Assembly (NCBI GenBank): GCA_011772495.1
Contig: WVZL01000004.1
Coordinates: forward strand, 1 to 64,000
Direction of reading: 5' to 3'
Length of the DNA stretch: 64,000 nt
Origin: Candidatus Aminicenantota bacterium
GTDB taxonomy: Bacteria > Acidobacteriota > Aminicenantia > Aminicenantales > Aminicenantaceae
Part shown: in pieces, positions 52,400 to 58,931 of the stretch
How positions within the stretch are numbered: position 1 is the stretch's first letter
How the letters are laid out: each line of letters begins with the position of its first letter
Made by a program: the position numbers and the translations under genes
Notes under the pieces: generated by a model
What the model was told of the DNA's origin: nothing
Seen by the model: the letters and a program-made list of their open reading frames with translations, nothing else
Databases searched by the model: none

Positions 52400-54061
52400 T
52401 CATCTCTTCTTAGAGCTTCGCTTAAAAAGGATTTTTCTGGCATCGTAGACAATGATAGCAGCTAGGATTATCAAAATAAGGCTTACAATTCCCAAGAGAA
52501 AGCTCCTGGCTTTAAAAAAATTGTATCCCTGATAAGCTAAGGCGGCAAGAGTCGTCGTCAGCATGAAGTAAGCAGGATAAATCGTGTAGGCTTTGGGCTT
52601 TTTTATGCCCACCAGGAAAGAAGAGACAATAATCAAAGCCAAGGCAGCCACAAGTTGGTTTGAAGCGCCGAAGACTGGCCAGATGGCTTTATAGCCCTCT
52701 GTAACCCCCAGGATCGCGGCTAAAATAATTATGACCGATGAGGCTACCCATCTATTCCTGAAAAGGGGGATTTTTTGTCCTGCCAATTCAGTAAGAATGA
52801 ACCGTCCTAGTCTTGTTCCTGTATCTAGAGTTGTGAGGACAAAAGCATTGAGCATGATCATGCCGAAGAAGAGGCCTATGGTTAGAGAAAGCCCCGGGAG
52901 AGAAGAAATGAACCTTCCATATCCGGTAGCAAAAGCTTGGATGGGGTCTCCGAGGGAAGTCATTAAATACTGAAAGCCGAATTGACTCTTGGTACCCGAA
53001 GGGTCCCAGACCAAAGCGCCTGAGGCGATGAATATCACCAATCCTGCTAGGGCAGCCTCGGTGACCATTCCTCCGAATCCGATAATTTTTCCGCTTGATT
53101 CATCGGGAAGTTGTTTGGCTGTAGTCCCCCCAGCAACGACAGAATGAAAGCCGGAGATCGCTCCGCAGGCAATGATCACGAAGAGCATAGGCCAGAGAGG
53201 ACCACCTTTGCTGGAAAAAGATACAAAAGCAGGTGCACTCAAGGAAGGATTGGTGGCTAACAAACCAAGATAACCTAAGGCGAGCCCTAAGAAGAGAATC
53301 CAGGTGCTGATGTAATCCCTCGGCTGGAGGAGAAACCAGACTGGAAGGGAAGAGGCTATAAGACTATAGATAATCAGGATAAAGAACCAAAAGGTATGAT
53401 TTGGCAGGCCAAGAATTTTTGCCGGAAGAGAAATCGGGAATAGTTTTCCCAAGTAGATAAGCAGGAATAGAGCCACGAGAGCGGAAAGAGTTCCGGCAAG
53501 CACTTTGATGCCCTTTTTGTAGATCAACCAGCCGAAGATCATGGCAATGAAGATCAGGCCGAAAGTGGGAATGACTATTTCAGGCTGCGAGACAAGAGTT
53601 CGAGACGCAACTACGGCGAAGACAGCTATGACCAGCGCCAGGGCTAACCAAAGAAATACAGAAAATATTATTTTGGCTCTCGAGCCTAAGGTTTTTCTTG
53701 ATATATCGGCTAAAGAAGTCCCCTTATTCTGAACAGATATCATCAAGGACGTGTAGTCATGGACTGCTCCCAGAAAAACACTGCCTAAAGCAACCCACAA
53801 AGTGGCGCCAAGCCAGCCAAAATAAAGAACTCCTAACAGAGGACCCAGAATAGGGCCAGCACCCGCTATGGAAGAGAAGTGATGGCCGAAGAGAAGAGTT
53901 CTTTTGGCTGGAGAGTAGTCGACACCATCATTGAATTCTCTGGCAGGAGTTACTCGGCTGTTATCTGCTTGGATGACTCTCTTTTCTATAAAACTTCCAT
54001 AAATTTTATAGCCAAGCCCAAGCCAGACGATGAGAATGACGGCCACGATTAAGGCGTTCAT
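52400..54061 (-). CDS. cstA: CstA-type carbon starvation protein (peptide/pyruvate transporter family)
   Basis: GGAGG precedes ATG 54061. The 553-residue multi-spanning protein has the CstA signature FGHHFSSIAGAGPILGP, FGWLGATLWVALGSVFLGAVHD and SGFHSVVAGGTTAKQL, with GTRLGRFIL near residue 410. It is shorter than E. coli CstA (about 700 residues) but covers the conserved core. CstA proteins import peptides or pyruvate under carbon limitation. Next to OPT transporters it suggests reliance on amino-acid and peptide carbon. A shared promoter with the OPT gene is not evident. Confidence 0.93.
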   Translation of the reverse strand: MNALIVAVILIVWLGLGYKIYGSFIEKRVIQADNSRVTPAREFNDGVDYSPAKRTLLFGHHFSSIAGAGPILGPLLGVLYFGWLGATLWVALGSVFLGAVHDYTSLMISVQNKGTSLADISRKTLGSRAKIIFSVFLWLALALVIAVFAVVASRTLVSQPEIVIPTFGLIFIAMIFGWLIYKKGIKVLAGTLSALVALFLLIYLGKLFPISLPAKILGLPNHTFWFFILIIYSLIASSLPVWFLLQPRDYISTWILFLGLALGYLGLLATNPSLSAPAFVSFSSKGGPLWPMLFVIIACGAISGFHSVVAGGTTAKQLPDESSGKIIGFGGMVTEAALAGLVIFIASGALVWDPSGTKSQFGFQYLMTSLGDPIQAFATGYGRFISSLPGLSLTIGLFFGMIMLNAFVLTTLDTGTRLGRFILTELAGQKIPLFRNRWVASSVIIILAAILGVTEGYKAIWPVFGASNQLVAALALIIVSSFLVGIKKPKAYTIYPAYFMLTTTLAALAYQGYNFFKARSFLLGIVSLILIILAAIIVYDARKILFKRSSKKR

Positions 54062-54164: not shown

Positions 54165-56066
54165 TTATTTAGAGGTTTTGTAGAAAAGATAAGCTACTAA
54201 TCCCAGAAAAGCGATCAGAGATACGAAGTCTGCGAGATTTTCAGGCCAGATCAGACCTATGCCTTGGGGTTTTGCCTTGGCGATATAGGCATAAATAGCT
54301 ATGGCAACTCCGGTGAGGCCTTCTCCGGCAATGAAACCGGAGCCCAGGAGGACTCCCTTTTCTCTTCGGCTTTGTTTCAGCTCTTCGTTCTTGGCTCTTC
54401 TTTCGACGAAAGACCTGACAAGTCCACCGACATAAATAGGAGTCATCGTGGAAAGGGGTAGATAAATACCTACCGCAAAAGGAAGAGAAGGGACGCCTAT
54501 GAGTTCAGCCACCACGGCGAAAGTTCCTCCGATAAAAACGAGTCCCCACGGCAGGTCGCCTCCGAGGACTCCTTCGATAACGGTTTTCATCAATACGGCC
54601 TGAGGGGCTGGAATGTCTGGAGAGCCAAAAGTAAAAGACTTACCCAAGAGCCAGACAGCCGCAGCGATGGCAAAAGCTGAGGTGATAACGCCTATCAATT
54701 CTGTGGTCTGTTGTCTTTTAGGCGTGGCTCCGATGATATAGCCAGCTTTGAGGTCTTGAGAGATGTCCCCTGCGATCGAGGCTCCTACGCAAACCACTGT
54801 TCCCACAGTTATGGCCGTGGCTTGACCGAGCAAGTCTGTCCACCCTAAAGCATAGAATAAAAGGCTGGTTCCTAAGAGAGTCACTATGGTCATTCCTGAG
54901 GTCGGATTTGAAGTGACGCCGACCATGCCCACGATTCGAGAAGACACGGTGACAAAACAGAAAGCAAAGACGACTATGCAGACGGAAGCAATGATTCTAA
55001 CCAGAAAAGTCGTTTGGATTCCGAGGATTTGTGGGGAGAGAATCAGAATAGCGGCCACGATGAGAATCCCAGAAAAAAGGACAGTGATGGGGAGATCAGT
55101 TTCTGTTCTCTTTTTTTTCAAGCCTCCCTCAGCTCTTCCGATTTTGAATTCTTTGATGCTGATCTTCAAAGAGTTGAACATGGTGGGGAAGGACTTGACG
55201 ACCGTAATGAGTCCACCCATTGCCACTGCACCGGCTCCCACATACCTGATGTATTTTTCCCATATTTCGGAGGCTGGCATCTCTGCTATGGAATGAACGG
55301 TCTCAGGAAATAAAGGAATGCTCAGGTGCTCTCCGAAGTAGGCAATGAGAGGAATTATTCCTATCCAAGAGAGTAAGCCTCCGGCTACCATTATACCAGC
55401 GATACGGGGGCCAAGGATGAAGCCAACGCCAAGCAGGGCAGGGGTAGGTTCCATACCCAGCAGAGCCTTCTTCAGGACAGGAATCTTGAGATAGATTTTG
55501 TCCGGCCAGAGACGGAGAAATCCAATCAGACTCTTGAAGATAAAACCAACTCCTAGGCCAAGAAAGACATTTTTTGCCTTGGCTCCACCCTCATCGGCGG
55601 CTATTAAGACTTGGGCGCTGGCTGTTCCTTCAGGGTAAGGCAGAACACCATGTTCTCGGACAATTAGGAATCTTCGCAGAGGAATCATGAAGAGCACACC
55701 CAGGACTCCACCTAATAGAGCTAGAATGCCTATTTTAAAAATGCTAGGATTAAATCCCCATAGAAATAGAGCAGGAATGGTAAAAATGATCCCGGAGGCG
55801 AGAGAAGAACTGGCTGATCCCGTGGTTTGAGATATGTTACAATCTAAAATTGTGCTCTTGCCAATGATGGGAACCAAAGCTCTGAATACAGCCACAGAAA
55901 TCACTGCGAGGGGGATGGCGGTGCTTATAGTCAGCCCCACTCTCAGACCTAAGTATGCATTGGCAGACCCAAAGACAATGCCAAAGATGGCGCCAACGAT
56001 GATGGCCTTTAAACTGATATCTTTGTAGTTCGTAAGATCGGGAACATAAGGTTTATGCTCGTTCAT
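54165..56066 (-). CDS. Second OPT-family oligopeptide transporter
   Basis: The 633-residue protein is a paralogue of the product of 39509-41533. Shared features are YVPDLTNYKDISLKAIIVG at the N-terminus, ANAYLGLRVGLTISTAIPLAV, LPYPEGTASAQVL, MVGVTSNPTSGMTIVTLL and VPSLPFAVGIYLPLSTM. About 14-16 helices are expected. AAGGATATCTCCC before ATG 56066 is a moderate ribosome binding site. Its C-terminal stop is 103 bases before the cstA start. It is probably a proton-linked peptide transporter with unknown substrate. Confidence 0.88.
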   Translation of the reverse strand: MNEHKPYVPDLTNYKDISLKAIIVGAIFGIVFGSANAYLGLRVGLTISTAIPLAVISVAVFRALVPIIGKSTILDCNISQTTGSASSSLASGIIFTIPALFLWGFNPSIFKIGILALLGGVLGVLFMIPLRRFLIVREHGVLPYPEGTASAQVLIAADEGGAKAKNVFLGLGVGFIFKSLIGFLRLWPDKIYLKIPVLKKALLGMEPTPALLGVGFILGPRIAGIMVAGGLLSWIGIIPLIAYFGEHLSIPLFPETVHSIAEMPASEIWEKYIRYVGAGAVAMGGLITVVKSFPTMFNSLKISIKEFKIGRAEGGLKKKRTETDLPITVLFSGILIVAAILILSPQILGIQTTFLVRIIASVCIVVFAFCFVTVSSRIVGMVGVTSNPTSGMTIVTLLGTSLLFYALGWTDLLGQATAITVGTVVCVGASIAGDISQDLKAGYIIGATPKRQQTTELIGVITSAFAIAAAVWLLGKSFTFGSPDIPAPQAVLMKTVIEGVLGGDLPWGLVFIGGTFAVVAELIGVPSLPFAVGIYLPLSTMTPIYVGGLVRSFVERRAKNEELKQSRREKGVLLGSGFIAGEGLTGVAIAIYAYIAKAKPQGIGLIWPENLADFVSLIAFLGLVAYLFYKTSK

Positions 56067-56147: not shown

Positions 56148-57203
56148 TTACTTACGAATGATCAGGTTTTTTACGGTATCTTCCCAATTGAACATGGAGA
56201 TAAATTCGTAAGCCTTTTGACCCATTTTTTCCGCCAGATCTTCCCTCTCCGCAAGTTCATCGATTTTTTCAGCAATTTTTTTGGGGTCAGGATCCAGGAC
56301 ATGTCCTGTTTGGCCATTATTGACTAATTCAGTAGGACCTCCGCTATCATAAGTGGTCAGCACGGGTTTCCGGGAGGCAAAGGCTTCTGCAGTGACAAAA
56401 CCATAATCTTCTCTCAAGGGGCTGAAAAACACAGCCCGACACCGAGCATAATGATCGAGGAGTGTCTCTTCATCTGTTTGACTCAAAATAAAGACTCTTT
56501 TTTCAAGATGGCTTTCTTTTATTCTTGAGGAAAGGTTTTTGTATTCTGATCCTTCTCCCATGATGAAGGCCTTGCACTCTTTGTTCTTGACATGCTTGAA
56601 GGCTTCGATGAGTAGATCCATTCTTTTTAGCTTTTGAAGTCTGGAGACAGAAAAGATGAAATTTTGATAAGAATCTGTTCGGTATGATCTTGGAGGAGCC
56701 GGTGGGTAGAGAACTTCAGCTTTGATGTTTCCCCATCTTCTCAATCTCGCCTGTACAGTTTTAGAGATGGAAAATAATTTGGTAACGTTGTGTTTCAGAA
56801 GATAAGAATCGAGGGAATGAATGATGGGTTTTTTTAAGCTTTCTTTTATTTTTCCTCTGAGGCCGCTCTGGGAGCTAAGAATTTCCCACAAATCATAATA
56901 TTCTCTTGGGCGATGCGTGAGCCAGCAGACATGAAGGGGATGCTTTACCGCATAACTCGGATAGCGGAAAGAGATCACTTGGTGGATTTTCCTTTCTAAA
57001 CCATCTTGCTGCACATCTGTCAATCGGGTCGCCAGGTAGGCTTGGAACAAGCGACCGAATCTGTTTGAGGGAGTGAGAAAAAGATCGGCCTCGTATCCGA
57101 GTTCTTTTAAGGCCTGAACAGTGCAGCGGGCGATCGTCAGATGTCCTCCCTCGACAAAGGGCACATCAGAGGTAACCGCGACAATTCTTTTGCTCTTAGG
57201 CAT
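56148..57203 (-). CDS. GT4-type glycosyltransferase
   Basis: The 351-residue protein has an N-terminal Rossmann-like half (VTSDVPFVEGGHLTIARCTV) and the GT4 C-terminal half with FIFSVSRLQKLKRMDLLIEA, AFIMGEGSEYKNLSSRI, and the EX7E region FFSPLREDYGFVTAEAFASRKPVL. These bind the nucleotide-sugar donor. The acceptor is unknown, likely a cell-surface polysaccharide. AGGGAAAACG precedes ATG 57203. The next gene upstream on the same strand (deoA-like) has a stop 47 bases away. No wider glycan cluster is present apart from rfbD at 61454. Confidence 0.88.
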   Translation of the reverse strand: MPKSKRIVAVTSDVPFVEGGHLTIARCTVQALKELGYEADLFLTPSNRFGRLFQAYLATRLTDVQQDGLERKIHQVISFRYPSYAVKHPLHVCWLTHRPREYYDLWEILSSQSGLRGKIKESLKKPIIHSLDSYLLKHNVTKLFSISKTVQARLRRWGNIKAEVLYPPAPPRSYRTDSYQNFIFSVSRLQKLKRMDLLIEAFKHVKNKECKAFIMGEGSEYKNLSSRIKESHLEKRVFILSQTDEETLLDHYARCRAVFFSPLREDYGFVTAEAFASRKPVLTTYDSGGPTELVNNGQTGHVLDPDPKKIAEKIDELAEREDLAEKMGQKAYEFISMFNWEDTVKNLIIRK

Positions 57204-57249: not shown

Positions 57250-58386
57250 TTATCCAAGGTGACTATTTCTTACGCTCTCGATAATAAAAGGCTTAAACCC
57301 AGGAGGTTTTTTTGATAGGATAAAGGCCTTTTTTAATCTGTTCCCAAGAACAGGCCAAGGACCAGCATCATTGAGATGAACTTCAGCTATGACTTCATCC
57401 TCTTCAATTCTATCGCCGATCTTCTTAAAGATTAGAAATCCTGTTCTGTCGCTATCTGGCTGGCTGGTGGTGAATTCGTGCCATAAATGATTCATTTCTT
57501 CCATCTTTATCCTTTGGAGATAGCCTGTTCTTGGAGACAATAATATTTTCCTTATTTTAGCTCGGGGGAAAAGGGAGCCATCGCTGAACAGGAGCGAGTT
57601 TCCTCCTTGAGCCATGACGATTTCTTCGAATTTCCTCAGAGCTTGCCTTTCTTCTATTTTCCTCTTAAGCCAGCTCTTGGCTTCTGTTTTGGTCTTAAAT
57701 TTTCTGGCTAAAAGGAGCATTTCTGATCCTAGCTCGAGGACAAGCTTCAACACATCCAAAGGACCATTTCCTTTTAGGGTCTTGGCCACTTCTCTCACTT
57801 CTAAACAATTTCCGATGGATTCCCCCAGAGGTTGATTCAGGTTATTCAAGATAAAACAAGAGCCTATTTCTAATCGTTTGCATAGCTTTTCAAGCGAGGA
57901 GATAAAGATCTTGGCTTCCTGCCGACTCATGAGCGAGGAACCTTCGCCGACCTTGACATCGAAGACGATTCCCTGCATCCCTCCGACCAATTTTTGGCTT
58001 AGGACAAGCTTCTCGATTTCAGCGAGACCTTTTCCCGCAGTTGAAGACTCGTCGAATTCATAAATTCTCTTGAATGAGCTTGCAGTCTGATCAGGAATCG
58101 CTGCTATGGCGCTTCCAACCTTTAGCAGTTGCTTCTTTAATTCTTGGAGGCTGAGGGAAATTCTTACTCCTGGGATAGATGCAAATTTATCCAGACTATT
58201 ATCCTGAGCGCTTGGAGAAGAGGATAATATCAGAGGTATAGAAACCCCAGCTGAAGACACAAGCGGGGCAAGAATCAGTGGAGTTTTGTTGCCCAGGGCT
58301 CCTGTAGAACAGAATCCGATCCTTGGATAATTTTGGCACTGGAAGTCGATATTTGGTCCTCCGCTAGGATATTGACTTCAAGGCAT
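57250..58386 (-). pseudogene. Degenerate thymidine phosphorylase (DeoA) homologue with UGA at codon 3
   Basis: The conserved frame from 58377 to 57250 matches DeoA from its KTSLILAPLV segment onward (STGALGNKTPLILAPLV, then LDKFASIPGV, GIVFDVKVGEGSSLM, QPLGESIGNCLEV). Key parts are altered: the DKHSTGG region reads GFCSTGA, the GRGLGHTGGT loop is replaced by SSSPSAQDNS, and the YALRD and SIMSKK-type catalytic pieces read YEFDE and LVLSQK. An ATG at 58386 with AGAGGA upstream is in frame but is followed by TGA at 58380-58378. The N-terminal alpha domain is missing. If translation starts at the inner GTG 58260, a 336-residue product results. It is a pseudogene or a repurposed protein. Confidence 0.7.
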
Positions 58387-58535
58387 CCTTACGGTCCTCT
58401 TAAGATTTCTTAGAAACATAAAACCATACTTCTCCAGCAAGCAGACGTTTCAAGGAAGATGAGCTCTTGGAGAAGACCAATTGTGTTAGAGTTATTATTT
58501 CCGGCCTTGGTCAAGAAAGATACTCGGTGATTCTA

Positions 58536-58931
58536 TTATCTTAACGTATCAAGCGCTCTTTTATTGTCGCTGGTCTTGAAAACCAAGAGTGCCTTTCCTA
58601 CCTCGGCTGAGGTACCGTAGCAGTATTCGATGTTGATGACTGCATTTCCGAGTAAAGCGCCAATTTCTGCTCCTGCCCCGATACGATCGCTGATTTGAAC
58701 CGTGATAACCTCGTTCATCATGACTTCAAACCCCATGGCTTTCAAGGCTTTGTTAGCTTTTTTATTTTCCGAAGTCACCAGCAAAAAATGCCCTTTATCT
58801 TCTTCTGAATAAGCACAAAGGGCTCTGAGATTTATTCCCGCATTAGCTAGCGTACCGAGGACTCGGCCTAAAATTCCAGTCTCATTGGGTGTGATCACAT
58901 GAAGCTCAGTTTCTTTTGTTACGTTGTGCAC
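58536..58931 (-). CDS. ACT-domain protein
   Basis: The start is GTG 58931 with AAAGGAGGA upstream. The 131 residues show two ACT-like units: ELHVITPNETGILGRVLGTLANAGINLRAL (first, typical ligand-binding glycine-rich turn) and TVQISDRIGAGAEIGALLGNAVINIEYCYG (second). Such tandem ACT proteins bind amino acids and regulate enzymes or transcription. No effector domain is attached. It lies 149 bases upstream of the degenerate deoA gene and may be unrelated to it. The partner is unknown. Confidence 0.85.
   Translation of the reverse strand: MHNVTKETELHVITPNETGILGRVLGTLANAGINLRALCAYSEEDKGHFLLVTSENKKANKALKAMGFEVMMNEVITVQISDRIGAGAEIGALLGNAVINIEYCYGTSAEVGKALLVFKTSDNKRALDTLR

Follow-up and report, generated by a model that had tools for sequence, protein, structure and literature searches.

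We identify a frame in the window (the whole 64,000-nucleotide stretch of DNA that was analysed) as a dead homologue of thymidine/pyrimidine-nucleoside phosphorylase, with 375 open codons and a closing TAA. In the account that we consider likely, it is an Aminicenantes-specific pseudoenzyme derived from thymidine phosphorylase (TP), linked to an ACT-domain gene and selected yet dispensable; it would have a binding role, and the window copy would be in early decay after the loss of its start. The features of the locus are collected in Table 1.

Table 1. Features of the pseudo-TP locus and its neighbours, in window positions.
Feature	Positions	Strand	Basis or remark
Open frame of the dead phosphorylase homologue	57250..58377	-	Sequence, profile and PDB matches, normal codon usage, TP fold in the model
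TAA closing the phosphorylase-like frame	57252-57250	-	Sequence
ATG-CCT-TGA directly 5' of the open frame	58378..58386	-	Sequence; TGA seen in one assembled genome
AGAGGA, Shine-Dalgarno-like, 8-nt gap to ATG 58386	58395..58400	-	Sequence
FCSTG replacing KHSTG (K84, H85 lost; S86 kept)	58300..58314	-	Alignment
LSSSPSAQDNS replacing the glycine-rich SGRGLGHTGGT loop	58195..58227	-	Alignment
YEFDE replacing YALRD (R171 lost)	58048..58062	-	Alignment
LVLSQK replacing SIMSKK (S186, K190 lost)	57991..58008	-	Alignment
GTG, first canonical start codon in frame, residue 40, inside the fold	58258..58260	-	ORF call and model
GGAGG (58362-58358), 7-nt spacer, in-frame ATC (58350-58348, residue 10); possible non-AUG start	58348..58362	-	Sequence and model; speculative
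Spacer of 158 bp, non-coding, stops in all frames	58378..58535	-	Codon usage and alignments
Paired ACT-domain protein gene (PF19571), upstream, co-directional	58536..58931	-	Present in nearly all family members
Group 1 glycosyltransferase gene, downstream	56148..57203	-	Neighbour annotation
OPT oligopeptide transporter gene, downstream	54165..56066	-	Neighbour annotation
CstA-type carbon starvation protein gene, downstream	52400..54061	-	Neighbour annotation

By descent and fold, the frame belongs to the thymidine/pyrimidine-nucleoside phosphorylase family. In a profile search it matches TIGR02644 with 194 bits (E=3.5e-57), covering positions 63-415 of the 417 in the model but far below the curated cut-off of 409.05 bits, and its best solved relative is the PyNP of PDB 1brw (E=9.8e-47), from residue 69 onward. 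Because the matches begin at these positions, the N-terminal alpha domain is absent from the frame, which agrees with the preliminary description, where the DeoA alignment was said to start only after that domain. The AlphaFold model has the TP fold (pLDDT 88.3, pTM 0.90) and finds 1brw as its top Foldseek match (TM 0.86); residues up to 9 are disordered, order sets in at about residue 17, and the first strand starts at residue 19. What the window protein has in common with the DeoA and PyNP enzymes (TIGR02644; 1brw, 1tpt) is homology that spans the greater part of the alpha/beta and C-terminal domains, the same modelled fold and a PYNP_C-like C-terminal domain, and the alpha/beta core and the C-terminal domain are the parts it retains. 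It differs from them in lacking KHSTGG, SGRGLGHTGGT, YALRD and SxxxKK, and the window copy is also without the N-terminal domain, which in human TP forms part of the active-site cleft and of the dimer interface (PMC2719695). The body of the frame has codon usage that is normal for the genome, at 0.276 bit per codon versus 0.13-0.44 in the other window genes, while the 158 bp upstream look non-coding, so the open frame is not the product of chance. The coding signal of the first 75 codons is weaker (0.10 bit per codon). An intact second TP taking over was considered and rejected, as no second TP homologue was found in the window genome (88% complete). As a side observation, the 88% complete genome G000 has no Glycos_transf_3 domain match anywhere, hence no TrpD, which may reflect incompleteness or tryptophan auxotrophy.

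The active site is lost throughout. Substituted in the window are the positions of K84, H85, S113, R115, H119, T120, G121, G122, T123, R171, S186 and K190, where the residue numbers are those that we take to be of E. coli TP, assigned to the window alignment by motif; S86 is retained. The HTGGT loop and the catalytic Arg/Ser/Lys region had already been described as missing, and in our alignment all of these positions are changed. The catalytic Lys-His of KHSTG is F-C in the window and P-F/Y, G-F, I-M or L-F in the relatives, and the pyrimidine-binding R171, S186 and K190 are replaced by D, L and Q. The SGRGLGHTGGT phosphate loop is missing from every pseudo-TP, with replacement residues that differ from genus to genus. 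The catalytic motif is retained by the 23 intact TPs of this alignment, with conservative exceptions only. For human TP, the mutants H116F, H116K, R202E, R202S and S217G have no detectable activity, and K115A is still active (PMC2719695). H116, R202 and S217 are the equivalents of H85, R171 and S186, all of them substituted in the window. Judged from its residues, the window protein would be without phosphorylase activity, and phosphorolysis is very unlikely because both the phosphate loop and the pyrimidine contacts are gone.

To place the loss in the family, we compared 38 genomes of the same GTDB family (Ca. Aminicenantes), in which the window genus is represented by one genome. The phosphorylase homologue is present in 11 of the 38, on contigs that, for the relatives, belong to Candidatus Aminicenantes MAGs. 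A search with the window protein alone gave no hit to a named relative; these hosts were named through the alignment. All homologues with enough flanking sequence have the ACT gene immediately upstream and GT, OPT or CstA genes downstream. Copies range in length from 425 codons (G029, G031, G032) through 405 (G003), 401 (G024) and 370 (G008) to 292 (G004, G005), and the catalytic motifs are absent from all family copies tested. The g5 and g7 copies have no N-terminal domain and their frames are still open. In a tree of 59 proteins, the six copies that align best, the window copy and those of G029, G031, G032, G003 and G024, form one clade (support 100/99) on a long stem, separate from all intact TPs; the long branches of this tree were flagged by the tree program, and the short g5 and g7 copies, which are outside it, were placed by position and similarity. 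The intact TPs of f6, another family of the same order, have different surroundings, in a setting that resembles nucleoside salvage. The pseudo-TPs are one descendant family at one conserved locus.

Since the copies in the same slot are dead and fall in one clade, the loss of the active site is shared and old and is not local damage. Damage to a working DeoA in the window alone was rejected on the same evidence. An intact DeoA in the same place in relatives, which would have spoken for simple local damage, was not found; the relatives there are catalytically dead. The preliminary description had offered two readings: a pseudoenzyme whose gene recently became a pseudogene, or a protein begun at an internal codon. 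These readings stand up well, given the dead relatives and the selection on the dead frame, but the loss of the active site is family-wide and not this copy's own decay; what is the window copy's own is the lesion at the 5' end.

Purifying selection on the dead frame, for which dN/dS had been suggested as a check, appears wherever it is measurable. Among the three full-length g19 copies, which run through 425 codons without frameshift or stop, dN/dS comes to 0.28-0.32 (bootstrap upper bounds no higher than 0.43), and for the g5 pair it is 0.27 (0.19-0.37). The flanking ACT, OPT and CstA genes have values mostly of 0.05-0.2 in the same genome pairs. Copies with intact starts are thus under purifying selection that is weaker than that on the flanking genes. 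The gene is a pseudoenzyme in the sense that the motif was lost on a shared branch and the protein was kept (100/99; dN/dS about 0.28). Selection is strongest in the core helices and in the C-terminal domain. The TP/CstA ratio of tip-branch lengths is 4.8 for the window, 3.9 for G003, 6.3 for G024 and 2.5-4.8 for the g19 tips, ratios that are only approximate, given the poor resolution of the family backbone; the window value lies inside the 2.5-6.3 range of several intact copies and gives no rate excess. We hold it highly improbable that the protein has remained an enzyme by rebuilding its active site for a different substrate. The confident TP fold, the purifying selection and the retention of S86 and of the core helices are consistent with it, and pseudoenzymes with migrated residues are known (PMC10211241). 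However, the phosphate-binding glycine loop is lost too and its replacement is different in each genus, no new shared polar motif appears at the old catalytic places, and codons 61-160, which surround the former active site, have a dN/dS (0.31-0.38) not below that of the rest of the gene.

Elsewhere in the family the gene is found in pieces. The very close relatives G030 and G029, of one genus, differ in that G029 (L017) has the full gene and G030 (L067 2484-2615) has only the first ~44 codons and a 39-aa mini-ORF left after a deletion. In G037 (L025 1462-1864) what is left of the pseudo-TP is an open frame of about 130 C-terminal codons that has no early ATG and is possibly a stand-alone domain fragment. 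G002 has a short segment around the former phosphate strand (a weak match, E about 0.0002-0.008), and G010 a weak N-terminal trace (E about 0.015). In g2, g10, g16 and g18 nothing is detectable between the ACT gene and the next gene. Because the remaining pieces differ, the losses in G030, G037, G002 and G010 are separate; losses are therefore repeated, and the weak backbone of the family tree makes their number inexact. As sister genomes lose the gene, the role of the pseudo-TP is dispensable. In g11, g12, g15 and g20 (L061, L065, L066, L068, L071, L072, L076), the place behind the ACT gene is occupied by a convergent gene block, with a 430-490 aa protein, a 160-185 aa coiled-coil-like protein and glycosyltransferases.

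At the 5' end of the window copy, the letters are as first described: an ATG with AGAGGA upstream, a TGA at codon 3, and more than 370 open codons (375) after it. The UGA is present and is not the sole defect, as the N-terminal domain is gone and a start at GTG 58260 cuts the fold. A mechanical ORF caller begins the gene only at that GTG (336 aa), a start whose product would be missing the first strand of the modelled fold and the greater part of its first helix, and there is no fold-preserving ATG, GTG or TTG in the frame. The g19 and g4 relatives encode the N-terminal domain at the position of the window's 158-bp spacer. In no frame of the spacer did protein or DNA alignments, compared with shuffles, find a decayed N-terminal domain above chance, and the score of the best DNA alignment between spacer and N-terminal domain was equalled by 10 of 200 shuffles. 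No promoter above shuffle level was found in the spacer, and an exact-match search gave no match of the window 5' end in viral contigs.

The window frame thus has a defective 5' end, yet its body is open, free of frameshifts and unaccelerated. The most economical account is a recent loss of the start in an already trimmed gene, and the window copy has probably lost its start recently; the placement of ATG 58386 fits a start used until recently, because of the spacing of AGAGGA and a distance to the first strand like that in g5. Taken alone, a body free of frameshifts and with normal codon usage is no sign of decay, and the window copy may still be translated. The placement of the ATG would also suit a TGA that is a sequencing, assembly or strain-specific difference, with the gene of the population intact from ATG 58386 over about 378 codons. 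AGAGGA is well placed before this ATG, which lies ~25 codons ahead of the first strand, similar to the trimmed g5 copies (MPPQDPW... in G004). We find this decidedly unlikely, as the one assembled genome of the species shows the TGA, and the short N-termini of the window and g5 copies are too weakly alike to count as homology. A recoded UGA, by selenocysteine or tryptophan read-through, is scarcely credible. A long open frame does follow the single UGA, but further in-frame stops lie upstream, and TGA ends 15 of the 45 window genes. The best matches to the tRNA-Sec model in the genome (88% complete) turned out to be tRNA-Ser and tRNA-Leu genes, and selenocysteine at the TGA was rejected.

The window copy could also be a working pseudoenzyme, trimmed at the N-terminus as in g5 and g7, whose translation begins at a non-canonical codon, for instance the ATC at 58350 that follows GGAGG; we regard this as unlikely. 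Such a start would keep the entire modelled fold, the GGAGG is suitably spaced, codon usage is normal, the copy has no rate excess, and the g5 and g7 copies stay open despite the missing domain. On the other side, the first 75 codons are weakly coding, and AUC is very rare as a start codon. Shine-Dalgarno-like words, sought with the same loose criterion, precede 20 of the 45 window genes, and being so common they make the GGAGG weak evidence for a start. We think it seriously doubtful that a non-catalytic binder working with the ACT protein is still made in the window genome from a non-AUG start after N-terminal loss.

In the favoured account of an old pseudoenzyme with a recently lost start, an active TP/PyNP ancestor would have lost its catalytic residues on the shared ancestral branch while the protein was retained. 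The window copy, already trimmed of its N-terminal domain, would then have lost its start fairly recently, and would have begun to decay in the way that has already removed the gene from close relatives. Because fold and coding have outlasted the chemistry, we infer that the protein worked by binding a ligand or partner and not by phosphorolysis. The first candidate partner would be the co-directional paired-ACT protein, and the partnership is our first hypothesis from gene order. ACT domains usually sense amino acids or other small ligands, and the nearby transporters would fit a nutrient-use setting. The partner would be an optional one, because genomes that have lost the phosphorylase gene still have the ACT gene.

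Like known pseudoenzymes such as pseudokinases and pseudophosphatases (PMC10211241), the pseudo-TP has an enzyme fold without catalytic residues and is under purifying selection in several lineages; unlike them, it is lost repeatedly rather than conserved. Non-catalytic modes described for pseudoenzymes include allosteric regulation, scaffolding and competitive binding (PMC10211241). Under the terms searched, we found no TP-derived pseudoenzyme in open-access papers. Dead-enzyme genes are usually viewed as either established regulators or ruined pseudogenes. Here one fixed locus in one family presents many stages: full-length copies under selection, N-terminally trimmed ones, an open body that has lost its start, fragments, and empty sites. 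Given these staged copies, how long dead enzymes are retained, and for what, becomes a question that can be put to a direct test by sampling sequences and purifying a few of the proteins. Automatic pipelines may label these genes thymidine phosphorylase and so predict a pyrimidine salvage that the cells probably cannot do this way.

Two minor observations concern the G008 locus. Its OPT gene (L022 11465-13642), in the conserved place, has 39% identity to the window OPT versus 66-79% in other genera, and has probably been replaced, judging by this identity. The 370-codon pseudo-TP copy of G008 begins inside a stretch repeating GAATTTATGAATAG(C/A)ACAGG (L022 8805-9130), and because the start sits in this stretch, the 5' end of the copy may stem from a repeat insertion.
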